Source of the DNA: Aurantiacibacter xanthus
GTDB taxonomy: Bacteria; Pseudomonadota; Alphaproteobacteria; Sphingomonadales; Sphingomonadaceae
Direction: 5' to 3'
Assembly: GCF_003584015.1 (NCBI RefSeq)
Contig: NZ_QXFM01000006.1
Span: 1-64,000, forward strand
DNA length: 64,000 nt
A program made the position numbers and the translations under genes. This document shows positions 3,424 to 24,648 of this stretch, piece after piece (the stretch's first letter is position 1; every line of letters starts with the position of its first letter). The notes under the pieces are model-generated. The model worked only from the letters and a program-made list of their open reading frames with translations. It ran no database searches and was not told the DNA's origin.

Positions 3424-4239
3424 ATGCCCGAACTGCCCGAAGTCGAAACCACCGTGCGCGGCCTCGCCCGCTTCCTCGAAGGCGCGCGAATCGAGAGCGT
3501 GCGTCTCAACCGCCCCGATATGCGGTTCCCGTTTCCGCCCGATCTGGTGCAGATGCTGACCGGGGCGACCGTCTCATCGCTCGGGCGGCGGGCGAAATAT
3601 GGCCTGCTCCACACCGACCGCGATTCGACCATGGTCTTCCACCTCGGCATGAGCGGGCGTTGGCGAATCGACCCCGAGACCGACGAGAAGCACGATCACC
3701 TCGTGCTCGAAACGCCGGGACACCGCTTTGCCCTCAACGATCCGCGCCGATTCGGCTTCGTCGATCTGGTGCAGACCGACCGGCTCGAAGGCTGGCGCGC
3801 CTTTGCCGCGATGGGACCCGAACCGCTCGGCAGCGAGCTGACCGCTGCCCACCTCAAGGCCGCGCTGGCGGGGCGCAAACAGGCAATCAAGCTGTGCCTG
3901 CTCGATCAGGCGATCGTGGCCGGGCTCGGCAATATCTATGTCTGCGAAGCGCTGTTCCGGGCGCGAATCGATCCGCGCAAAGCCGGCGGCACGGTTGCGA
4001 AGGCGGCGCTCGAACGGCTCGTCCCGGCCATCCGCGAGGTGCTCGAACAGAGCATTGCCGACGGTGGCTCCTCCTTGCGTGACTATGCCGCGCCAAACGG
4101 CGAACTGGGCTATTTCGCCACCCGTTTTGCCGTCTATGGCCGCGAGGGCGAGCCGTGTCTGCGCGAGGACGGCGGCACCATCGTGCGGATCGTCCAGGGC
4201 GGGCGCAGCACATGGTATTGCCCGAGGTGCCAGCGATAG
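3424..4239 (+). CDS. mutM: Formamidopyrimidine-DNA glycosylase (Fpg)
   Basis: A 271-residue bifunctional DNA glycosylase/AP lyase that removes 8-oxoguanine and formamidopyrimidines. It begins with the required MPELPEVE, in which Pro2 is the catalytic nucleophile and Glu3 the acid. The conserved KYGLL lysine, the LGNIYVCEALFRA helix-two-turn-helix and a C-terminal WYCPRCQR zinc-finger end are present. Oddly, the first half of the finger reads GEPCLREDGG, with only one cysteine where Fpg normally has CxxC, so just three of the four zinc ligands are cysteines. It precedes rpsT and dnaA, as in many alphaproteobacteria. Confidence 0.97.
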   Translation: MPELPEVETTVRGLARFLEGARIESVRLNRPDMRFPFPPDLVQMLTGATVSSLGRRAKYGLLHTDRDSTMVFHLGMSGRWRIDPETDEKHDHLVLETPGHRFALNDPRRFGFVDLVQTDRLEGWRAFAAMGPEPLGSELTAAHLKAALAGRKQAIKLCLLDQAIVAGLGNIYVCEALFRARIDPRKAGGTVAKAALERLVPAIREVLEQSIADGGSSLRDYAAPNGELGYFATRFAVYGREGEPCLREDGGTIVRIVQGGRSTWYCPRCQR

Positions 4240-5080: not shown

Positions 5081-6556
5081 ATGACAATGATACGGATGGG
5101 GCCACAGGCAGGACGCGTGCGCAAAGACAAGAACGGGAACAACGTGGAAAATATCGAGGAGAGCGAAGCCCTGGACCTCGCGGCGGACTGGGCTGACATC
5201 AGCCAGGGCCTGCGCAAGGACCTCGGCCACCAGCTCCACCAGCAGTGGATCAAGCCGATCCAGCTCGGCAAGCTCGACAAGGCCACCGGCACACTCGAGC
5301 TGTTCCTGCCGAGCGAATTTCTCGCCAACTGGGTGCGCAAGAACTATCTCGACCGCCTCTCGCTCGCCTGGAAGATCATCCGCGGCGGCGTGCGTCAGGT
5401 CGAGGTGAAGGTGCACCCCGGCCGTCGGCGGATGTCGGACATCAGCCTCAAGAGCCAGGACCACTTCGGCAATGTCGCCGCCAACGATCCGTCGCTGGCG
5501 ATGGAATCGATCGGCGACGATGGCTTCACCTCCAGCGTCGGCCTCGACCCGACCCAGACCTTCGCCGCCTTCGTCACCGGCACCGGCAACGTGCTGGCCA
5601 AGAACGCTGCCGAGCGTATGGCGCAGGCCGAAAAGCCGCAGTTCTCGCCGCTTTACCTCAAGGCCGCCACCGGCCAGGGCAAGACGCATCTGCTGCACGC
5701 CATCGGCCACCAGTATCTGCGCACCTTCCCGCGCGCCCGCATTTTCTACTGCTCGGCCGAGCGCTTCATGGTCGAGTTCGTGCAGGCGCTGAAGTCGAAC
5801 GAGATGATCGAGTTCAAGGGCCGTCTGCGGGGCTTCGACCTGCTGCTGGTCGACGACATCCAGTTCATCATCGGCAAGGCCAGCGCGCAGGAAGAGTTGC
5901 TTTACACCATCGACGCGCTGCTTAACGAGGGCAAGCGGCTGGTCTTCGCCGCCGACCGCGCGCCGCAGGCGCTCGACGGGGTCGAGCCGCGCCTGCTCAG
6001 CCGCCTGTCGATGGGTCTGGTCGCCGATATCCAGCCAGCCGACATCGAACTGCGCCGCTCGATTCTCGAATCGAAGCTGACCAAGTTCGCCCCGCTCGCG
6101 GTGCCCGAGGACGTGATCGACTTCCTTGCCCGCACCGTCAGCCGCAATGTGCGCGAGCTGGTCGGCGGGCTCAACAAGCTGATCGCCTATGCCCAGCTTA
6201 CGGGTCAGGAAGTGTCGCTTCAGCTTGCCGAGGAGCAGCTGACCGACATTCTCTCGGCCAACCGCAAGCGCATCACGATCGACGAGATCCAGCGCACCGT
6301 CTGCCAGTTCTACCGCATCGACCGCGCGGAAATGAGCAGCAAGCGCCGCGCCCGCGCGGTGGTGCGTCCGCGGCAGGTGGCGATGTATCTCTCGAAGGTG
6401 CTGACCCCGCGCAGCTATCCCGAGATCGGACGCAAGTTCGGCGGCCGCGATCACTCGACCGTGATCCACGCCGTGCGCCTGATCGAAGACCTGCGCACCC
6501 GCGACGCCGATATGGACGGCGACGTGCGCAGCCTGCTGCGCCAGCTGGAGAGCTGA
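5081..6556 (+). CDS. dnaA: Chromosomal replication initiator protein DnaA
   Basis: DnaA binds DnaA boxes at oriC, opens the origin and helps load DnaB. The protein shows an N-terminal oligomerisation/DnaB-interaction domain, an AAA+ core and a C-terminal DNA-binding domain. The core has Walker A ATGQGKTHLLHA near residue 197 and Walker B LLLVDDIQF. The C-terminal DnaA signature reads KFGGRDHSTVIHA. The ATG at 5081 (491 residues) has AGGA nine bases upstream; alternatives are ATGs at 5090 and 5096 and a GTG at 5144, from which the conserved region soon begins. An upstream in-frame start at 5015 lacks support. A cluster of DnaA-box-like sites lies directly downstream. Confidence 0.96.
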   Translation: MTMIRMGPQAGRVRKDKNGNNVENIEESEALDLAADWADISQGLRKDLGHQLHQQWIKPIQLGKLDKATGTLELFLPSEFLANWVRKNYLDRLSLAWKIIRGGVRQVEVKVHPGRRRMSDISLKSQDHFGNVAANDPSLAMESIGDDGFTSSVGLDPTQTFAAFVTGTGNVLAKNAAERMAQAEKPQFSPLYLKAATGQGKTHLLHAIGHQYLRTFPRARIFYCSAERFMVEFVQALKSNEMIEFKGRLRGFDLLLVDDIQFIIGKASAQEELLYTIDALLNEGKRLVFAADRAPQALDGVEPRLLSRLSMGLVADIQPADIELRRSILESKLTKFAPLAVPEDVIDFLARTVSRNVRELVGGLNKLIAYAQLTGQEVSLQLAEEQLTDILSANRKRITIDEIQRTVCQFYRIDRAEMSSKRRARAVVRPRQVAMYLSKVLTPRSYPEIGRKFGGRDHSTVIHAVRLIEDLRTRDADMDGDVRSLLRQLES

Positions 6557-19640: not shown

Positions 19641-22031
19641 ATGACAGGACCCGCAAAGCCGAAGGTGTGCACGCCAGAAGGTGAACGGGTGGTCAGAACG
19701 AACACGAGAACAAAGCCCAGGAAGGGGTACAGGGAACGGCTGAGACATCTCGTCTGGGCCGGCCTGATCGCACTTATCCTGCAGTTCTCTACCTTGCTCG
19801 TTCCGCTCGACCAGCTTTTCAATCTTGCCCAGTACCGGCAGGGTGGTTTCCAGGCCTCGGGACAGATTGCTTTCATCGGCACTCAGAATGACCTGACAGA
19901 CCCCGCCAATCCTCGCAGACGCGAAGACCTCGCCCGCTTCATAAGCGATCTCGATCGCGCCGGTGCCAAGGAAATCTACGTTGATCTGGTGTTCGACCGC
20001 GCCTCGGCAGCGGGGAGCGATGCGGCCCTGCGCGAAGCCCTGCTCGCCACCAGAGGCCGTGCGGTGCTGGTCGACAAGGGACGGACAACGCTCGACGGCA
20101 CTGCCGAGGTCATGACGAGCATACCAGCCATCAGCAGCGGTGTGGATCAGGTCGGGTCGGTTATATGGACCGATTACATTTACGGTATCGTTTGGATTGC
20201 CTATCCAATGCGCTTCTTCCTTGAAGAAGAACCTGATGCGAACACGACATCGACATCGCAAATCCACGGAGACCTTGCGGCCCGTTTGGCTGGTACGTCG
20301 GACACCATCGAAAAGCCGTTCTGGATCAGCTACTTCTTCGACCTCGAAACAATCCCGATCTACCGCTTGGAGCGTTTGCTCGACCAGCCCGGGAACTTGA
20401 GGCAGTTGGCAGGCAAGAAAGTCATAATTGGAGCCATCGCATCGACCGACGCGATTAAGGCGAATGTACCCGGCCAGCTTGGCGTTCCGCCTTCGATCGT
20501 TGATATCTTTGCCGCCGAAACGCTGATGTCAGGCCACACTGGCGGGTTTGACGGCATGGAAATACTAGTTGTTGCGCTGGTACTGATGATCGCCGCTGCA
20601 CTCGTGCCCAATCGACGCTGGCGCTACGGGGTCTATGCTACGGTCGCACTTTCCTTGCCGCTGGCATATTTCGTGGCAACGCAGTTCGCTATTCGAATGA
20701 ATGGCGCAAGCGTTCTGATCTTGCTGCTTGCCTACTGCGCCTTCCGCGCGCGCTCGACCTGGAAGAGCAGCTTTACACTAATCGATGCTGACACCGATCT
20801 TCCCACCTTCATCGCATTCGAAGGCAATAAGGACATAGCCGAGGCAGTCCCCACGATCATTGTCGCCAAGGTTCATCGGTTCGAAGAGGTGCGCCGCACC
20901 CTCCCGCCCGAGCTGCAGTCGGAGTATATCCTGCGCATCATCGCCCGGCTCAAGGCCGCGACGCAGGACGCCACACTCTATATCGGTCAGGGCAACCTGA
21001 TCGCCTGGACGATGGAGGAGAAAGAGCCGACACTGCTGCGCGACCATCTGGAAGGTCTGCGCGCGCTGTTCGCCTCGCCGCTGATGGTCGGCGACAATGC
21101 CATCGACGTCAGCGTCACCTTCGGTGTCGATGTCACTGCCAGCCCCAACGTGGCACGTCGTCTCGCCTCTGCCATTGCCGCCGCGGAGAAAACCAACGAG
21201 ACTTTCGAGCCCATCGCCATTGCCGATGCCGCCAGCGACGAAGACCTGATCTGGAACATTTCGCTTCAGGCCCGAATCGACGCAGCGCTGGCCAGCGGCG
21301 AGATCTACCTGGTCTTCCAGCCCAAGGTCGATGTCGCCACCGGTGCGCTGATCGGAGTCGAGGCCTTGGTGCGCTGGAACGATCCCGCACGCGGCCATAT
21401 CGCACCGGACCAGTTCATTCGCCAGTGCGAGAATGCCGGTCGCATGAGCCACCTCACGCGTCACGTGCTCACTCACGGCTGTCTCGCGGGACAGGAACTG
21501 CAACGCGCCTGCGGCCCGGTGCCAGTGGCGGTGAACATTTCCGCCACGCTGCTGCACGAGCGATCGATCGTGCGGATGGTGCGCGAAGTTCTCTCCGCAA
21601 CGGGCTACGATCCACGCCTGCTCGTCCTTGAGATCACCGAGACCTACCGCATCGCCGATCTGGACCGCGCGGGGGCAATCCTCGCCGAACTCAAAGCACT
21701 GGGCACCAAGATCTCGATGGACGACTTCGGCGTGGGTGCGGCCAGCCTCGAGGCGCTGATGCACCTGCCGTTCTCCGAACTGAAGATCGACCGTCTGTTC
21801 ATCAGCCGGATGGGCAGCGACCCCAAGGCAATGGGGATTGTGACCAACGTTCTTCACTTGGGCAAAGACCTGGGAATCACCGTCGTTGCAGAGGGGGTGG
21901 AAGACCAGAAAACCCTGCAGATGCTACGCGATTCGCAGTGCCCAGTGGCGCAGGGCTACGGAATCGCCCGCCCATCCAGCCTTGAGGACGTCATTATATT
22001 TCAGGGACTTGCGTCCCAGAGCGCAGCCTGA
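19641..22031 (+). CDS. CHASE2 sensor with degenerate GGDEF and intact EAL domain (c-di-GMP phosphodiesterase)
   Basis: A 796-residue membrane signalling protein. One N-terminal membrane helix (near residues 37-57) is followed by a CHASE2 extracytoplasmic sensor to about residue 300, then three clustered helices (about 303-375). A GGDEF-like region has GQGNL where the active site should be, so cyclase activity is unlikely. The EAL domain keeps its catalytic residues: GVEALVRW, VNIS, LEITE, MDDFG, LKIDR, VAEGVE and QGYGIARP. It should therefore hydrolyse c-di-GMP. A GTG at 19689 preceded by AAGGTG is a better-supported start than 19641. The sensor half is visibly less GC-rich than the EAL half. 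Confidence 0.92.
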   Translation: MTGPAKPKVCTPEGERVVRTNTRTKPRKGYRERLRHLVWAGLIALILQFSTLLVPLDQLFNLAQYRQGGFQASGQIAFIGTQNDLTDPANPRRREDLARFISDLDRAGAKEIYVDLVFDRASAAGSDAALREALLATRGRAVLVDKGRTTLDGTAEVMTSIPAISSGVDQVGSVIWTDYIYGIVWIAYPMRFFLEEEPDANTTSTSQIHGDLAARLAGTSDTIEKPFWISYFFDLETIPIYRLERLLDQPGNLRQLAGKKVIIGAIASTDAIKANVPGQLGVPPSIVDIFAAETLMSGHTGGFDGMEILVVALVLMIAAALVPNRRWRYGVYATVALSLPLAYFVATQFAIRMNGASVLILLLAYCAFRARSTWKSSFTLIDADTDLPTFIAFEGNKDIAEAVPTIIVAKVHRFEEVRRTLPPELQSEYILRIIARLKAATQDATLYIGQGNLIAWTMEEKEPTLLRDHLEGLRALFASPLMVGDNAIDVSVTFGVDVTASPNVARRLASAIAAAEKTNETFEPIAIADAASDEDLIWNISLQARIDAALASGEIYLVFQPKVDVATGALIGVEALVRWNDPARGHIAPDQFIRQCENAGRMSHLTRHVLTHGCLAGQELQRACGPVPVAVNISATLLHERSIVRMVREVLSATGYDPRLLVLEITETYRIADLDRAGAILAELKALGTKISMDDFGVGAASLEALMHLPFSELKIDRLFISRMGSDPKAMGIVTNVLHLGKDLGITVVAEGVEDQKTLQMLRDSQCPVAQGYGIARPSSLEDVIIFQGLASQSAA

Positions 22032-22044
22032 ATATAGTTAAAAC

Positions 22045-22073
22045 TTTACAAAGATCTATGGTTAACGCTACAT
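22045..22073 (+). promoter_or_regulatory. Candidate sigma-70 promoter of the 16-codon mini-gene
   Basis: TTTACA at 22045-22050, a 17-base spacer and CTACAT at 22068-22073 form a good housekeeping-type promoter. Transcription would begin near 22080, just at the hairpin preceding the mini-gene. Confidence 0.5.
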
Positions 22074-22076
22074 AGC

Positions 22077-22095
22077 CCTTCGCTAAACGAAGGAG
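22077..22095 (+). promoter_or_regulatory. Hairpin sequestering the mini-gene Shine-Dalgarno
   Basis: CCTTCG (22077-22082) pairs perfectly with CGAAGG (22088-22093) across a five-base loop. The right arm is part of the Shine-Dalgarno AAGGAG (22090-22095). If the transcript includes the left arm, ribosome access would depend on hairpin opening. Confidence 0.5.
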
Positions 22096-22103
22096 TATTA
22101 ATC

Positions 22104-22154
22104 ATGGGTGCCAGTGTCTGGGACCGCCTTTTCGGTGGCAAAGCAATCGGCTGA
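22104..22154 (+). CDS. Candidate 16-residue miniprotein
   Basis: A 17-codon frame from ATG 22104 to TGA 22154 encodes MGASVWDRLFGGKAIG. Support is unusually complete for such a short frame: a candidate promoter at 22045-22073, a near-perfect AAGGAG Shine-Dalgarno eight bases before the ATG, and a strong terminator 27 bases after the stop. The whole unit is about 130 bases and lies in the gap between convergent genes (CHASE2-EAL and engB). The peptide has a short amphipathic hydrophobic core (VWDRLF) and a Gly-rich end, with net charge near +1. I do not recognise it. Alternatives are a regulatory leader peptide or a small RNA in which the frame is incidental. Confidence 0.5.
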   Translation: MGASVWDRLFGGKAIG

Positions 22155-22180
22155 TTGGCCGACAATCATAAATTTCGAAA

Positions 22181-22208
22181 AGGGGCGCTCCGGCGCCCCT
22201 TTTCTTTT
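22181..22208. terminator. Bidirectional intrinsic terminator
   Basis: AGGGGCGC (22181-22188) pairs with GCGCCCCT (22193-22200) across TCCG, followed by TTTCTTTT on the plus strand and by TTTCG on the minus strand after the A-rich left flank. It can serve the mini-gene and engB. Confidence 0.9.
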
Positions 22209-22243: not shown

Positions 22244-22885
22244 TTAGCTGCGCACGTCCGCCAGCACTGCCGCGCGCAGTTCGTCCAGGCCCAGTCCCTT
22301 CTCCGAACTCGTCAGGTGCAGCTGCGGATGCGCCGCCGGATGGCGCCGCATCTCTTCGGACACTGCCTGCGCCACCGCCTCCAGCTCGCTCGCCTTGATC
22401 TTGTCGGCCTTGGTCAGCACGACGCGATAGCCAACGGCGGTCTCGTCGAGCATCTTCATCATCTCGCGGTCGACATCCTTCAGCCCGTGGCGGCTGTCGA
22501 CGAGCACCAGCGTGCGCTTCAGCACCGCCCGGCCCTTGAGGAAGGTCCGCACCAGCGCGCGCCACTTTTCGACCACCTTCACCGGCGCCTTGGCAAAGCC
22601 ATAGCCCGGCATATCGACGAGGCGGAACTGGGTCGGCTCGCCCACCTCGAAGAAGTTAAGCTCCTGCGTGCGCCCCGGCGTGACCGATGTGCGCGCAATC
22701 GCCCGCCGCCCGGTCAGCGCATTCAGCAGCGACGACTTGCCGACGTTCGAGCGCCCGCAAAAGGCGACCTCGGGAAAGTCGCCAGCGGGCAGGAACTTGA
22801 GCTGCGGCGCGCTGAGCAGAAACTCCACCCGGCCCGAAAACAGCTTCGACGCCTCGCGGGCGAGGTCTTGTTCTTCCGGGGTCAC
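22244..22885 (-). CDS. engB: Ribosome biogenesis GTP-binding protein EngB/YsxC
   Basis: A 213-residue TRAFAC GTPase needed for large ribosomal subunit assembly. The G1 motif is GRSNVGKSSLLNAL, G3 is DMPGYGFAKA and G4 is LTKADKIK; all are intact, and SVTPGRTQ is the switch I/G2 region. The GTG at 22885 overlaps the yidC stop (GTGA) and gives the usual family length. Longer reading into yidC sequence is not credible. It is the last gene of the rpmH-rnpA-yidD-yidC-engB run. Confidence 0.95.
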   Translation of the reverse strand: MTPEEQDLAREASKLFSGRVEFLLSAPQLKFLPAGDFPEVAFCGRSNVGKSSLLNALTGRRAIARTSVTPGRTQELNFFEVGEPTQFRLVDMPGYGFAKAPVKVVEKWRALVRTFLKGRAVLKRTLVLVDSRHGLKDVDREMMKMLDETAVGYRVVLTKADKIKASELEAVAQAVSEEMRRHPAAHPQLHLTSSEKGLGLDELRAAVLADVRS

Positions 22886-24648
22886 CCTTTGGCCTTTTCG
22901 CGTTCGGCCGCCTTGGCTGCCGCTTCCTTCTCCGCCATCTCGCGCATCTGCGGGTTCTTCGCGTAGAGATACTTCTGCTGCGCGATGGTGAGAATGTTCG
23001 AGGTACACCAGTAGATCAGCAAGCCAGCTGCGAACGGCGCCATCACGAACATCATGATCCACGGCATAAAGGCGAATATCTGCTGCTGCGTCGGGTCCAT
23101 CGCACTGGGGTTGAGCTTGAACTGGAAGTACATCGTGCAGCCCAGCAGCAGCGCCAGCGGGCCAATCGCGAGGAAGCCCGGCGGCGTGAAGTCGAGCAGC
23201 CCGAACAGGTTCAGGAAGTGCAGCGGATCGGGCGCCGACAGGTCCTTGATCCAGCCGATGAACGGCTCGTGCCGCATCTCGATGGAAAGAAGCAGCGTCT
23301 TGTAGAGCGCGAAGAAGATCGGGATCTGCAGGAAGATCGGCAGACAGCCCGCGAGCGGATTGACCTTCTCTTCCTTGTAGAGCTTGGCCATCTCCTCCTG
23401 CAGCTTGGCCTTGTCGTCCTTGTAGCGTTCCTGCAGCGCCTTCATCTTGGGCTGCACGACACGCATCTGCGCCATCGACTTGAACTGCTTCTGCGCAATC
23501 GGGAACATGATCCCGCGCACGATCAGCGTCAGCAGGATGATCGCCACGCCGAAGTTCTTGGTCAGATCGAACAGCGCGATCAGCACCTGCCAGATCGGCC
23601 AGGCGATAAAGCGGAACCAGCCCCAGTCGATCGCGAGGCCGAACTTGGTCACGCCCTGGTCCTGATACATGTCGAGCACGGCGCTTTCCTTGGCGCCCGC
23701 AAACAGCCGGGTGGTGCGCGACAGCTGCTGGCCCGCAGGCAGGTTGACCGGCGCATAGAGCAACTCGGCGCGATAGACGCCCCTGTGCTCCTGATATTCG
23801 CCGCGGGTCTGGCTGCGGAAGGTGCTGGTGGCGCTTTCGCCGTCCGTCGGGATCAGCGCGCTCATCCAGTAGATGTCGGTGAAGCCGACCCAGTTCGTGC
23901 GCCCCTCAACGGTGACCGAACCGGCGTTGGCGACGTCCTTGTAGTTGGTCCCGAAGTCGACCGCGTTATCGTGCGCGCTGATCGGGCCGGAGTGGACGTT
24001 GAAGGTGTCCTTGCTGGCATTGGCGTCGGTGCGCACGATCATCGCATAGGGACGCAGCGCGAGGGTGCTGCCGCTGGTGTTGGCGACCGTCTGGGTAACG
24101 TTGATCATGTAGTGATCGTCGATGGTGAACTTCTGGCGGAAGCTGAGCCCCGCGCCGTTGTTCCAGCCGAGCGTGACCGGGGTCTTCTGCGTCAGCTTGT
24201 CGCCTTCGATCACCTGCCAGCGGGTTTCGGCATCGGGCAGGCTCACGCCATCGCCCAGCCAGCGGAACTGCGCATACTGCTGCCCCGGTGTGCCGGCAGG
24301 CGCGAACAGGCGGACGGGGCCCGAATCCTTCTCCACCGCCTGCCGGTGCGTGGTGAGGTCGATATCGTCGATCCGCGCGCCGACCGGATTGATCGAACCG
24401 ACCACCTCGGCTGCCTCGATCGGAATACGGCCCGGCGCGGCAATCGCCTCGTCGAGATCGACCGTCACGGCGATATCGCTCACCGCGTCGCCTGCGATCC
24501 GCTCCTGCGGCACGTCCTCGCGCGAGGCCATGTTGGCGGGCACGTCCTTCTCGGGCTCGGGGAAATAGTGCCGCATGGCAAAGTCCCAGCCGAACAGCAG
24601 GACCGCGCTCAGCACCACGGCGAGAATCAGGTTACGTTGATTGTCCAA
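22882..24648 (-). CDS. yidC: Membrane protein insertase YidC
   Basis: A 588-residue Oxa1/YidC insertase placing proteins in the inner membrane with or without SecYEG. The N-terminal helix (NLILAVVLSAVLLFGWDFA) is followed by a large periplasmic beta domain, as in Gram-negative YidC. The five-helix core contains GVAIILLTLIVRGIMFPIAQKQ and LAGCLPIFLQIPIFFALYK (TM2-TM3), then LIYWCTSNILTIAQQKYL. The C-terminus is Lys/Glu-rich, ending EKEAAAKAAEREKAKG. It lies 30 bases after yidD and overlaps engB by four bases. Confidence 0.97.
   Translation of the reverse strand: MDNQRNLILAVVLSAVLLFGWDFAMRHYFPEPEKDVPANMASREDVPQERIAGDAVSDIAVTVDLDEAIAAPGRIPIEAAEVVGSINPVGARIDDIDLTTHRQAVEKDSGPVRLFAPAGTPGQQYAQFRWLGDGVSLPDAETRWQVIEGDKLTQKTPVTLGWNNGAGLSFRQKFTIDDHYMINVTQTVANTSGSTLALRPYAMIVRTDANASKDTFNVHSGPISAHDNAVDFGTNYKDVANAGSVTVEGRTNWVGFTDIYWMSALIPTDGESATSTFRSQTRGEYQEHRGVYRAELLYAPVNLPAGQQLSRTTRLFAGAKESAVLDMYQDQGVTKFGLAIDWGWFRFIAWPIWQVLIALFDLTKNFGVAIILLTLIVRGIMFPIAQKQFKSMAQMRVVQPKMKALQERYKDDKAKLQEEMAKLYKEEKVNPLAGCLPIFLQIPIFFALYKTLLLSIEMRHEPFIGWIKDLSAPDPLHFLNLFGLLDFTPPGFLAIGPLALLLGCTMYFQFKLNPSAMDPTQQQIFAFMPWIMMFVMAPFAAGLLIYWCTSNILTIAQQKYLYAKNPQMREMAEKEAAAKAAEREKAKG

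Follow-up and report, generated by a model that had tools for sequence, protein, structure and literature searches.

A conserved micro-gene with a predicted Shine-Dalgarno hairpin downstream of a CHASE2-EAL gene in Aurantiacibacter and related genera

Hiding of a ribosome-binding site on particular transcripts is known from phage T4—according to excerpts of one account (PMC3014915), the Shine-Dalgarno (SD) sequence or start of genes e, soc, 49, and I-TevI is sequestered on long upstream transcripts, and for gene e the long early transcripts are shut, with transcripts from late promoters just upstream lacking the 5′ part. The locus described here lies within 64,000 nucleotides of Aurantiacibacter xanthus DNA (the window, meaning the whole stretch analysed) and resembles gene e, as portrayed in those excerpts, in having its SD inside a helix and a putative promoter near enough that the RNA would lack most of the 5′ part. 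Unlike gene e, it is on a bacterial chromosome, concerns a micro-ORF instead of a full gene, and has an assumed start; the logic is alike, with no homology between the two. Among small proteins, excerpts of PMC4325964 present CydX (37 aa) as a very small bacterial protein serving a larger membrane protein. The window peptide is likewise short and connected, here by linkage, with a larger membrane protein, but its family runs to 10–17 aa in many genera, and we claim no relation to CydX and treat the partner as putative. DUF1127 proteins, in the sections of PMC12501420 that describe them, are small, often under 50 aa, and one set acts on a signalling protein; the window family also consists of small proteins, but six of its long forms gave no match in Pfam or NCBIfam at E ≤ 1 (forms under 20 aa are below the scannable length).

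A further parallel concerns CtrA. Excerpts of PMC6180460 give TTAACCAT as an ungapped variant of the CtrA motif, and the CckA-ChpT-CtrA relay is retained in Sphingomonadales according to part of PMC2877005. Like CtrA-controlled promoters as outlined in the former source, the window carries ATGGTTAA (22058-22065), the reverse complement of TTAACCAT, and its TGGTTAA portion is near-invariant in the genus. Unlike them, its conservation in the genus does not extend to the first A of ATGGTTAA, and no full CtrA site (TTAA-N7-TTAA) was seen in the block. CtrA may possibly control the micro-gene, which we offer as a lead and not as a result. Literature searches with five peptide strings of the micro-ORF family returned no match in a collection of 5.39 million papers, nor did a search for CHASE2, EAL domain, and Sphingomonas together, and broader literature searches yielded nothing on the micro-gene among the papers listed. 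We class the type of gene as familiar and the family as new, with a mode of control that has a precedent in phage.

The features of the window locus, in order, are these:

19641..22031, + strand: gene for a CHASE2-EAL protein of 796 aa, the constant upstream neighbour of the micro-ORF
22045..22066, + strand: conserved block TTTACAAA-N6-TGGTTAAC, containing a putative -35 element TTTACA at 22045-22050
22068..22073, + strand: putative, weak -10 element CTACAT, 17 nt after TTTACA, read from the sequence only
about 22080, + strand: assumed transcription start of the micro-gene, placed by the putative -35/-10 spacing
22077..22093, + strand: predicted hairpin CCTTCG-CTAAA-CGAAGG (arms 22077-22082 and 22088-22093), its 3′ arm overlapping the SD; based on folds and covariation
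22090..22095, + strand: SD AAGGAG, based on the sequence and on genus-wide GGAG spacing
22104..22154, + strand: micro-ORF MGASVWDRLFGGKAIG, 16 codons plus TGA (ATG at 22104, stop at 22152-22154); based on core conservation and a codon test
22177..22204, + strand: predicted terminator hairpin GAAAAGGGGCGC-TCCG-GCGCCCCTTTTC with a 12-bp stem (22177-22188/22193-22204), T-rich to 22208; based on the fold
22244..22966, − strand: engB, ribosome-binding GTPase, convergent neighbour (Pfam MMR_HSR1, 9.3e-22)

The initial annotation had described promoter-like boxes, a hairpin, an SD, an ATG, a stop, and a terminator between convergent genes; each part was found where it had been placed, and the flanking genes do converge, with the CHASE2-EAL gene on the forward strand and the gene that we take to be engB on the reverse. 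The upstream protein matches Pfam EAL (1.9e-62) and CHASE2 (1.4e-7) and contains all seven of the EAL signature strings sought (EALVRW, NIS, EITE, DDFG, LKID, AEGVE, and QGYGIARP), which have a catalytic role. RNA from the gap is predicted to be more stable than its own dinucleotide shuffles (z −4.45), most of the excess coming, by eye, from the terminator. Consensus scans of the gap call neither a sigma-70 promoter nor a terminator, so both labels rest on conservation and folding; since the terminator is nearly symmetric, it may also serve engB. The combination had further been judged hard to explain by chance, which agrees with a single match to TTTACAAAN6TGGTTAAC in 64 kb with up to 3 mismatches allowed (0.02 expected) and with recurrence of the layout across the genus.

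That recurrence was seen in 40 genomes of the window's genus, each with a match to the C-terminal portion of the EAL protein (E ≤ 1e-60). Without exception, the parts following the CHASE2-EAL gene stand in the same order—a TTTACAAA-N6-TGGTTAA block, an SD hairpin, an ATG, a short ORF, and a T-run, the last no more than 95 nt past the ORF. Both TTTACAAA and TGGTTAA are at least 90% conserved over the 40 sequences, and the distance from GGAG to ATG is 7 nt in 38 gaps and 8 nt in the other two (G000 and G027). The ORFs are 13–17 aa long, and 39 of the 40 encode the core [IFV][WY][DA][WR][LI][FLIW]G followed by G, R, or T; the exception, G027, from a genome listed as 70% complete, keeps the layout with an ORF lacking the core, MRDILNTIIGGSR. 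An exact-pattern scan over contigs of 84,980 species matched 19 contigs, of which 18 carry the micro-gene and one (L046) is a chance match; because the pattern requires ATGGG, it misses micro-ORFs that begin otherwise. The 18 contigs, which in part belong to the same assemblies as the genus sample, come from Aurantiacibacter, Alteraurantiacibacter, Erythrobacter, Altererythrobacter, uncultured Sphingomonadaceae, and Alphaproteobacteria MAGs, and 17 show both EAL and EngB neighbours, the remaining one (L040) ending before the EAL gene. A sequence model of the element (R1) found one copy in G000, the window's own genome, at E ≤ 0.1. A candidate paralog there was rejected: the second DNA match (L002, 1501-1544, 83% over 44 nt) covers the terminator region only and probably reflects similarity of terminators and nothing more.

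We assessed coding potential over the 8 core codons in 38 distinct sequences from 39 genomes, against 200 column shuffles. Of 2901 codon pairs that differ, 1654 (57%) are synonymous, whereas shuffles average 23% and never exceed 46%. Read in frame, the sequences have a BLOSUM score of 8694; shuffles average −259 (sd 2638) and peak at 5740. A high score, though one below that of the sense frame, was also obtained for a single antisense frame (6351). Codon-level conservation in relatives, which the initial annotation had named as a check on its proposed microprotein, is therefore present, and the microprotein claim emerges strongly supported by this pattern together with the core and frame in 39 of 40 genomes, the SD spacing in all 40, and recurrence in other genera. 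By this comparison, the micro-ORF is under selection as a peptide, and on the same grounds we regard it as a micro-gene that encodes protein and belongs to a family of small proteins. Net charge ranges from 0 to +2 among 40 distinct genus peptides, and amphipathicity of the core as a helix barely exceeds that of shuffles (z 0.62). A PDB search gave only an antibody match (E 0.72).

Outside the genus, the micro-gene recurs in one particular place. We ran R1 on 298 family genomes, and all 27 of the best matches outside the genus (L098-L124) adjoin a CHASE2-EAL-type gene with 36–51% identity over the aligned part. Every one of them has an SD-led micro-ORF whose aromatic core includes one W or more, the ORF rule for L098-L140 itself requiring a W in the peptide; examples are MWSFWDWLLGGDK, MLRSIWDWIFN, MWNFWRWMFG, and MWDIWEWIFGR. 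The weaker matches include chance ones: of 16 low-scoring matches that we examined (L125-L140), four (L128, L129, L131, and L133) lie beside no EAL gene. Starting instead from the EAL protein, we obtained matches in 69 of 159 family genomes at E ≤ 1e-55; in the order-level EAL search, part of the rows from other families was read. Downstream of the EAL gene, an SD-led ORF with the core is present at 49 of 58 other-genus loci by a fixed rule and at 52 by eye (adding L157, L194, and L177, the last past an inserted element); the reverse strand of the 58 loci has none, and none appeared in 20 rounds of shuffles. At the same place, L143, L152, and L203 have an SD-led ORF without the core, and L183, L184, and L195 have no ORF. 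These counts concern orthologs defined by best EAL match and not by a tree, and the 58 loci were separated from 29 weaker ones (core in one, L212) after initial results had been seen; L206 was dropped as it had no EAL alignment, and L141, from the same genus, was left out.

Other-genus ORFs with the aromatic core are 10–38 aa long, the longer forms being found in part of the family and often joining a basic N-terminus to the same core (MAKRTKQPVRGFWDWLLGGGWSN, MKKRTQHQGRGFWEWLLGSGWK, and MSNRKIIQTVQAPRPTTTLEKRNVRGGIWDWVFGGYYR). On this comparative evidence, the family core is [FIV]W[DE]W[LIV][FL], often followed by GG, and the proteins are encoded directly 3′ of one CHASE2-EAL gene in the window's taxonomic family. 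The tie to engB drawn in the initial annotation holds in the genus, where engB lies across the gap in 39 of 40 loci, and goes no further: engB gave no match, within the flank examined, at 39 EAL-adjoining other-genus loci among L098-L140. The lasting neighbour of the micro-gene is the upstream CHASE2-EAL gene, not engB, and the comparison across genera shows that this link is old. A peptide HMM run on 289 class genomes was underpowered, as the window's own genome scored nothing at E ≤ 0.5; of its outside matches, the two that we examined (L233 and L235) look unrelated, L233 lying in what we take to be a YajC-like frame and L235 having other neighbours. In a plasmid collection, the best 15 of the 148 matches listed were EAL relatives at 33% identity or less.

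The hairpin over the SD, also part of the initial proposal, draws its support from co-variation of its arms across relatives. Mean folding energy is −10.2 kcal/mol for cognate arms and −7.4 after exchange of arms from one genome to another (z −10.8; none of 5000 permutations as good), though a genome's own partner ranks first, alone or tied, in only 11 of 40. In predicted folds, 38 of 40 sequences beat shuffles of their 5′ part by more than 1 sd, and at least three of the five AGGAG nucleotides are paired in 37 of 40. We measured covariation without gaps in 14 of the 16 genomes with a block-to-ATG distance of 57 (G027 and G007 left out). The score was 0.324, compared with 0.162 in shuffles (0 of 500), and fell when the arms were slid; in the named stem, 70.8% of cells pair and double changes number 18, whereas shuffles give 60.5% and 7.7 (none of 500 as high in either), and a one-column slide lowers pairing to 42–48%. 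Two of the five covariation measures on these 14 sequences, pairs with a double change and further pair types, were not above shuffles. RNAalifold predicted no pairs in the full 40-row MAFFT alignment, in our opinion because the stem register shifts between species. Accessibility is the weaker test: median predicted SD accessibility is only moderately low (0.25, against 0.47 in dinucleotide shuffles of the upstream part), and 19 of 40 SDs fall in the least accessible tenth relative to dinucleotide shuffles. The window SD is not among these (0.67) and is predicted to be no less accessible than its shuffles (0.42 against a mean of 0.31), and 14 of the 40 relatives are predicted fully closed (0.00) in the shuffle test. 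By comparison of the arms, the SD hairpin is under selection as a structure.

How such a hairpin would be used depends on where the micro-gene's transcript begins. From TTTACA and the weak -10, we infer that the micro-gene has its own promoter; -10 hexamers vary widely across sequences. Twenty-four other-genus sequences, namely the loci where a fixed block pattern was found (later-read loci left out), carry a block similar to the genus TTTACAAA-N6-TGGTTAA. We analysed these together with the 40 genus sequences, counting positions from the first T of TTTACA and folding from position 23, so that earlier arm starts are invisible. With TTTACA taken as the -35, the -10 would occupy 24–29 and transcription would start close to position 36. 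Median limits for the 5′ arm of the SD-covering hairpin are 28–37 in the genus and 27–37 elsewhere. In all 64 sequences, the arm starts ahead of the assumed transcription start, in or just past the putative -10, and for this reason we favour an arrangement like that of T4 gene e. In 49 of 64 (31/40 genus, 18/24 others), the arm stops by position 38, at most 2 nt beyond the assumed start; in the other 15, it extends further. In the window, the arm lies at 33–38 with the start at 36, and about half of it would remain. For RNA begun at the assumed site, the mean predicted probability that the SD is unpaired changes from 0.20 to 0.44 in the genus and from 0.11 to 0.39 in the others; the opposite trend, a drop in access exceeding 0.1, is seen in 5 of the 40 genus sequences and 2 of the 24 others.

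The reading that we prefer is that the 5′ arm straddles the -10 and start site of the micro-gene's own promoter. The complete hairpin would then be present on mRNA that reads through from the EAL gene, with the SD shut and poor translation, and an mRNA from the own promoter would be missing most of the 5′ arm, leaving the SD open and the ORF translated. As the start site is assumed, the read-through step is one that we infer. In the last and weakest step, the aromatic peptide would act on or with the membrane-type phosphodiesterase, which is the simplest reading because of the linkage. Against this step, the EAL match of G007 is split between frames although the micro-ORF beside it is intact. 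Taken jointly—coding micro-gene, selected SD hairpin, old EAL link, own promoter, read-through occlusion, and peptide-phosphodiesterase action—we consider this account about evenly balanced between right and wrong. Its most specific form, in which micropeptides of a new family, of as little as 10–13 aa, are separately controlled cofactors or inhibitors of the CHASE2-EAL phosphodiesterase, translated only from their own, possibly CtrA-driven, promoter while read-through RNA from the enzyme gene keeps the ribosome site locked, is a good deal more doubtful.

The best-surviving alternative, which we hold possible and appreciably less probable than the joint account, keeps the conserved micro-gene and places the hairpin inside its own transcript, as a switch that responds to temperature, a ligand, a protein, or a small RNA, or as an element that simply damps expression. 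The preserved hairpin with co-varying arms suits it, as does the start site being an assumed one, and predicted access of the window SD alone does rise with temperature (0.05 at 20 °C, 0.18 at 45 °C). Over the 40 sequences, mean predicted access is instead flat (0.19, 0.20, 0.20, and 0.20 from 20 to 45 °C), so that the temperature response suggested in the initial annotation finds no backing beyond the window and a conserved RNA thermometer is not supported by these predictions. Loop and stem sequences differ between species, which disfavours a sequence-specific ligand pocket, and the position of the 5′ arm, in or just past the putative -10, also counts against a hairpin carried whole on the micro-gene's own RNA.

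A slightly less probable alternative makes the micro-ORF the second cistron of an EAL operon with no promoter of its own, the block being an operator and the hairpin limiting translation. In 36 of the 40 genus genomes, the EAL stop codon directly precedes the block, which would fit this alternative, as would the lack of a consensus promoter. It fits less well with a block that is better conserved than the stretch between block and SD, and with G063 (L065), where the entire unit is tandemly duplicated in the gap: past the terminator-like end of the first copy come a second block, a hairpin (−10.6 kcal/mol with flanks), an ORF MRIWDWLFHRGTR, and another terminator-like end.

We think it very improbable that the product is a small regulatory RNA with its 3′ end at the terminator and an incidental or dual-function ORF. 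The unit is compact and ends in a terminator, giving a predicted transcript of about 130 nt, but changes in the ORF obey codon logic, and genus ORFs of 13–17 codons differ in length by whole codons, so the frame is kept; this pattern disfavours a small RNA without a coding role, an option left by the initial annotation, and ten Rfam matches at E ≤ 10 (best 0.0028) include none at gathering score. A leader peptide or attenuator acting on a downstream gene, suggested by a short ORF followed by a terminator hairpin, has a negligible probability, as the next gene in the window, engB, is convergent and so does not lie on the same strand, and the downstream gene was not engB, within the flank examined, at the 39 EAL-adjoining other-genus loci.

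Peptides of 10–17 residues fall below the range of ordinary gene finders, and here one of that size is kept beside a second-messenger enzyme gene in many genera. The related ORFs, from 38-aa down to 10-aa forms, provide a defined set for asking how short a functional product can be. The locus also offers a testable chromosomal case of promoter-dependent translation through an SD hairpin with co-evolving arms; if the most specific form of the preferred reading is true, this locus would produce phosphodiesterase and peptide at separate times.

Several individual loci depart from the common form. In L143 (MIDLIAIALGSRRGS, GTG start assumed), L152 (MWIIEALFGTGRR), and the genus exception G027 (L089), a similar block and SD are present and most aromatics are lost, reflecting either drift or a different target. 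In L177 (G183), an ORF that is presumably transposase-like is inserted after the EAL gene, with the micro-ORF MGWFWRFLGGGGTDSAGGQA on its far side, at 3749. In G007 (L090; G007:C3:115144-116303), the EAL match consists of two overlapping pieces in different frames, from a frameshift or an assembly error, and the micro-ORF MGGSIYDWLFGGRAG and its hairpin are intact despite the split.
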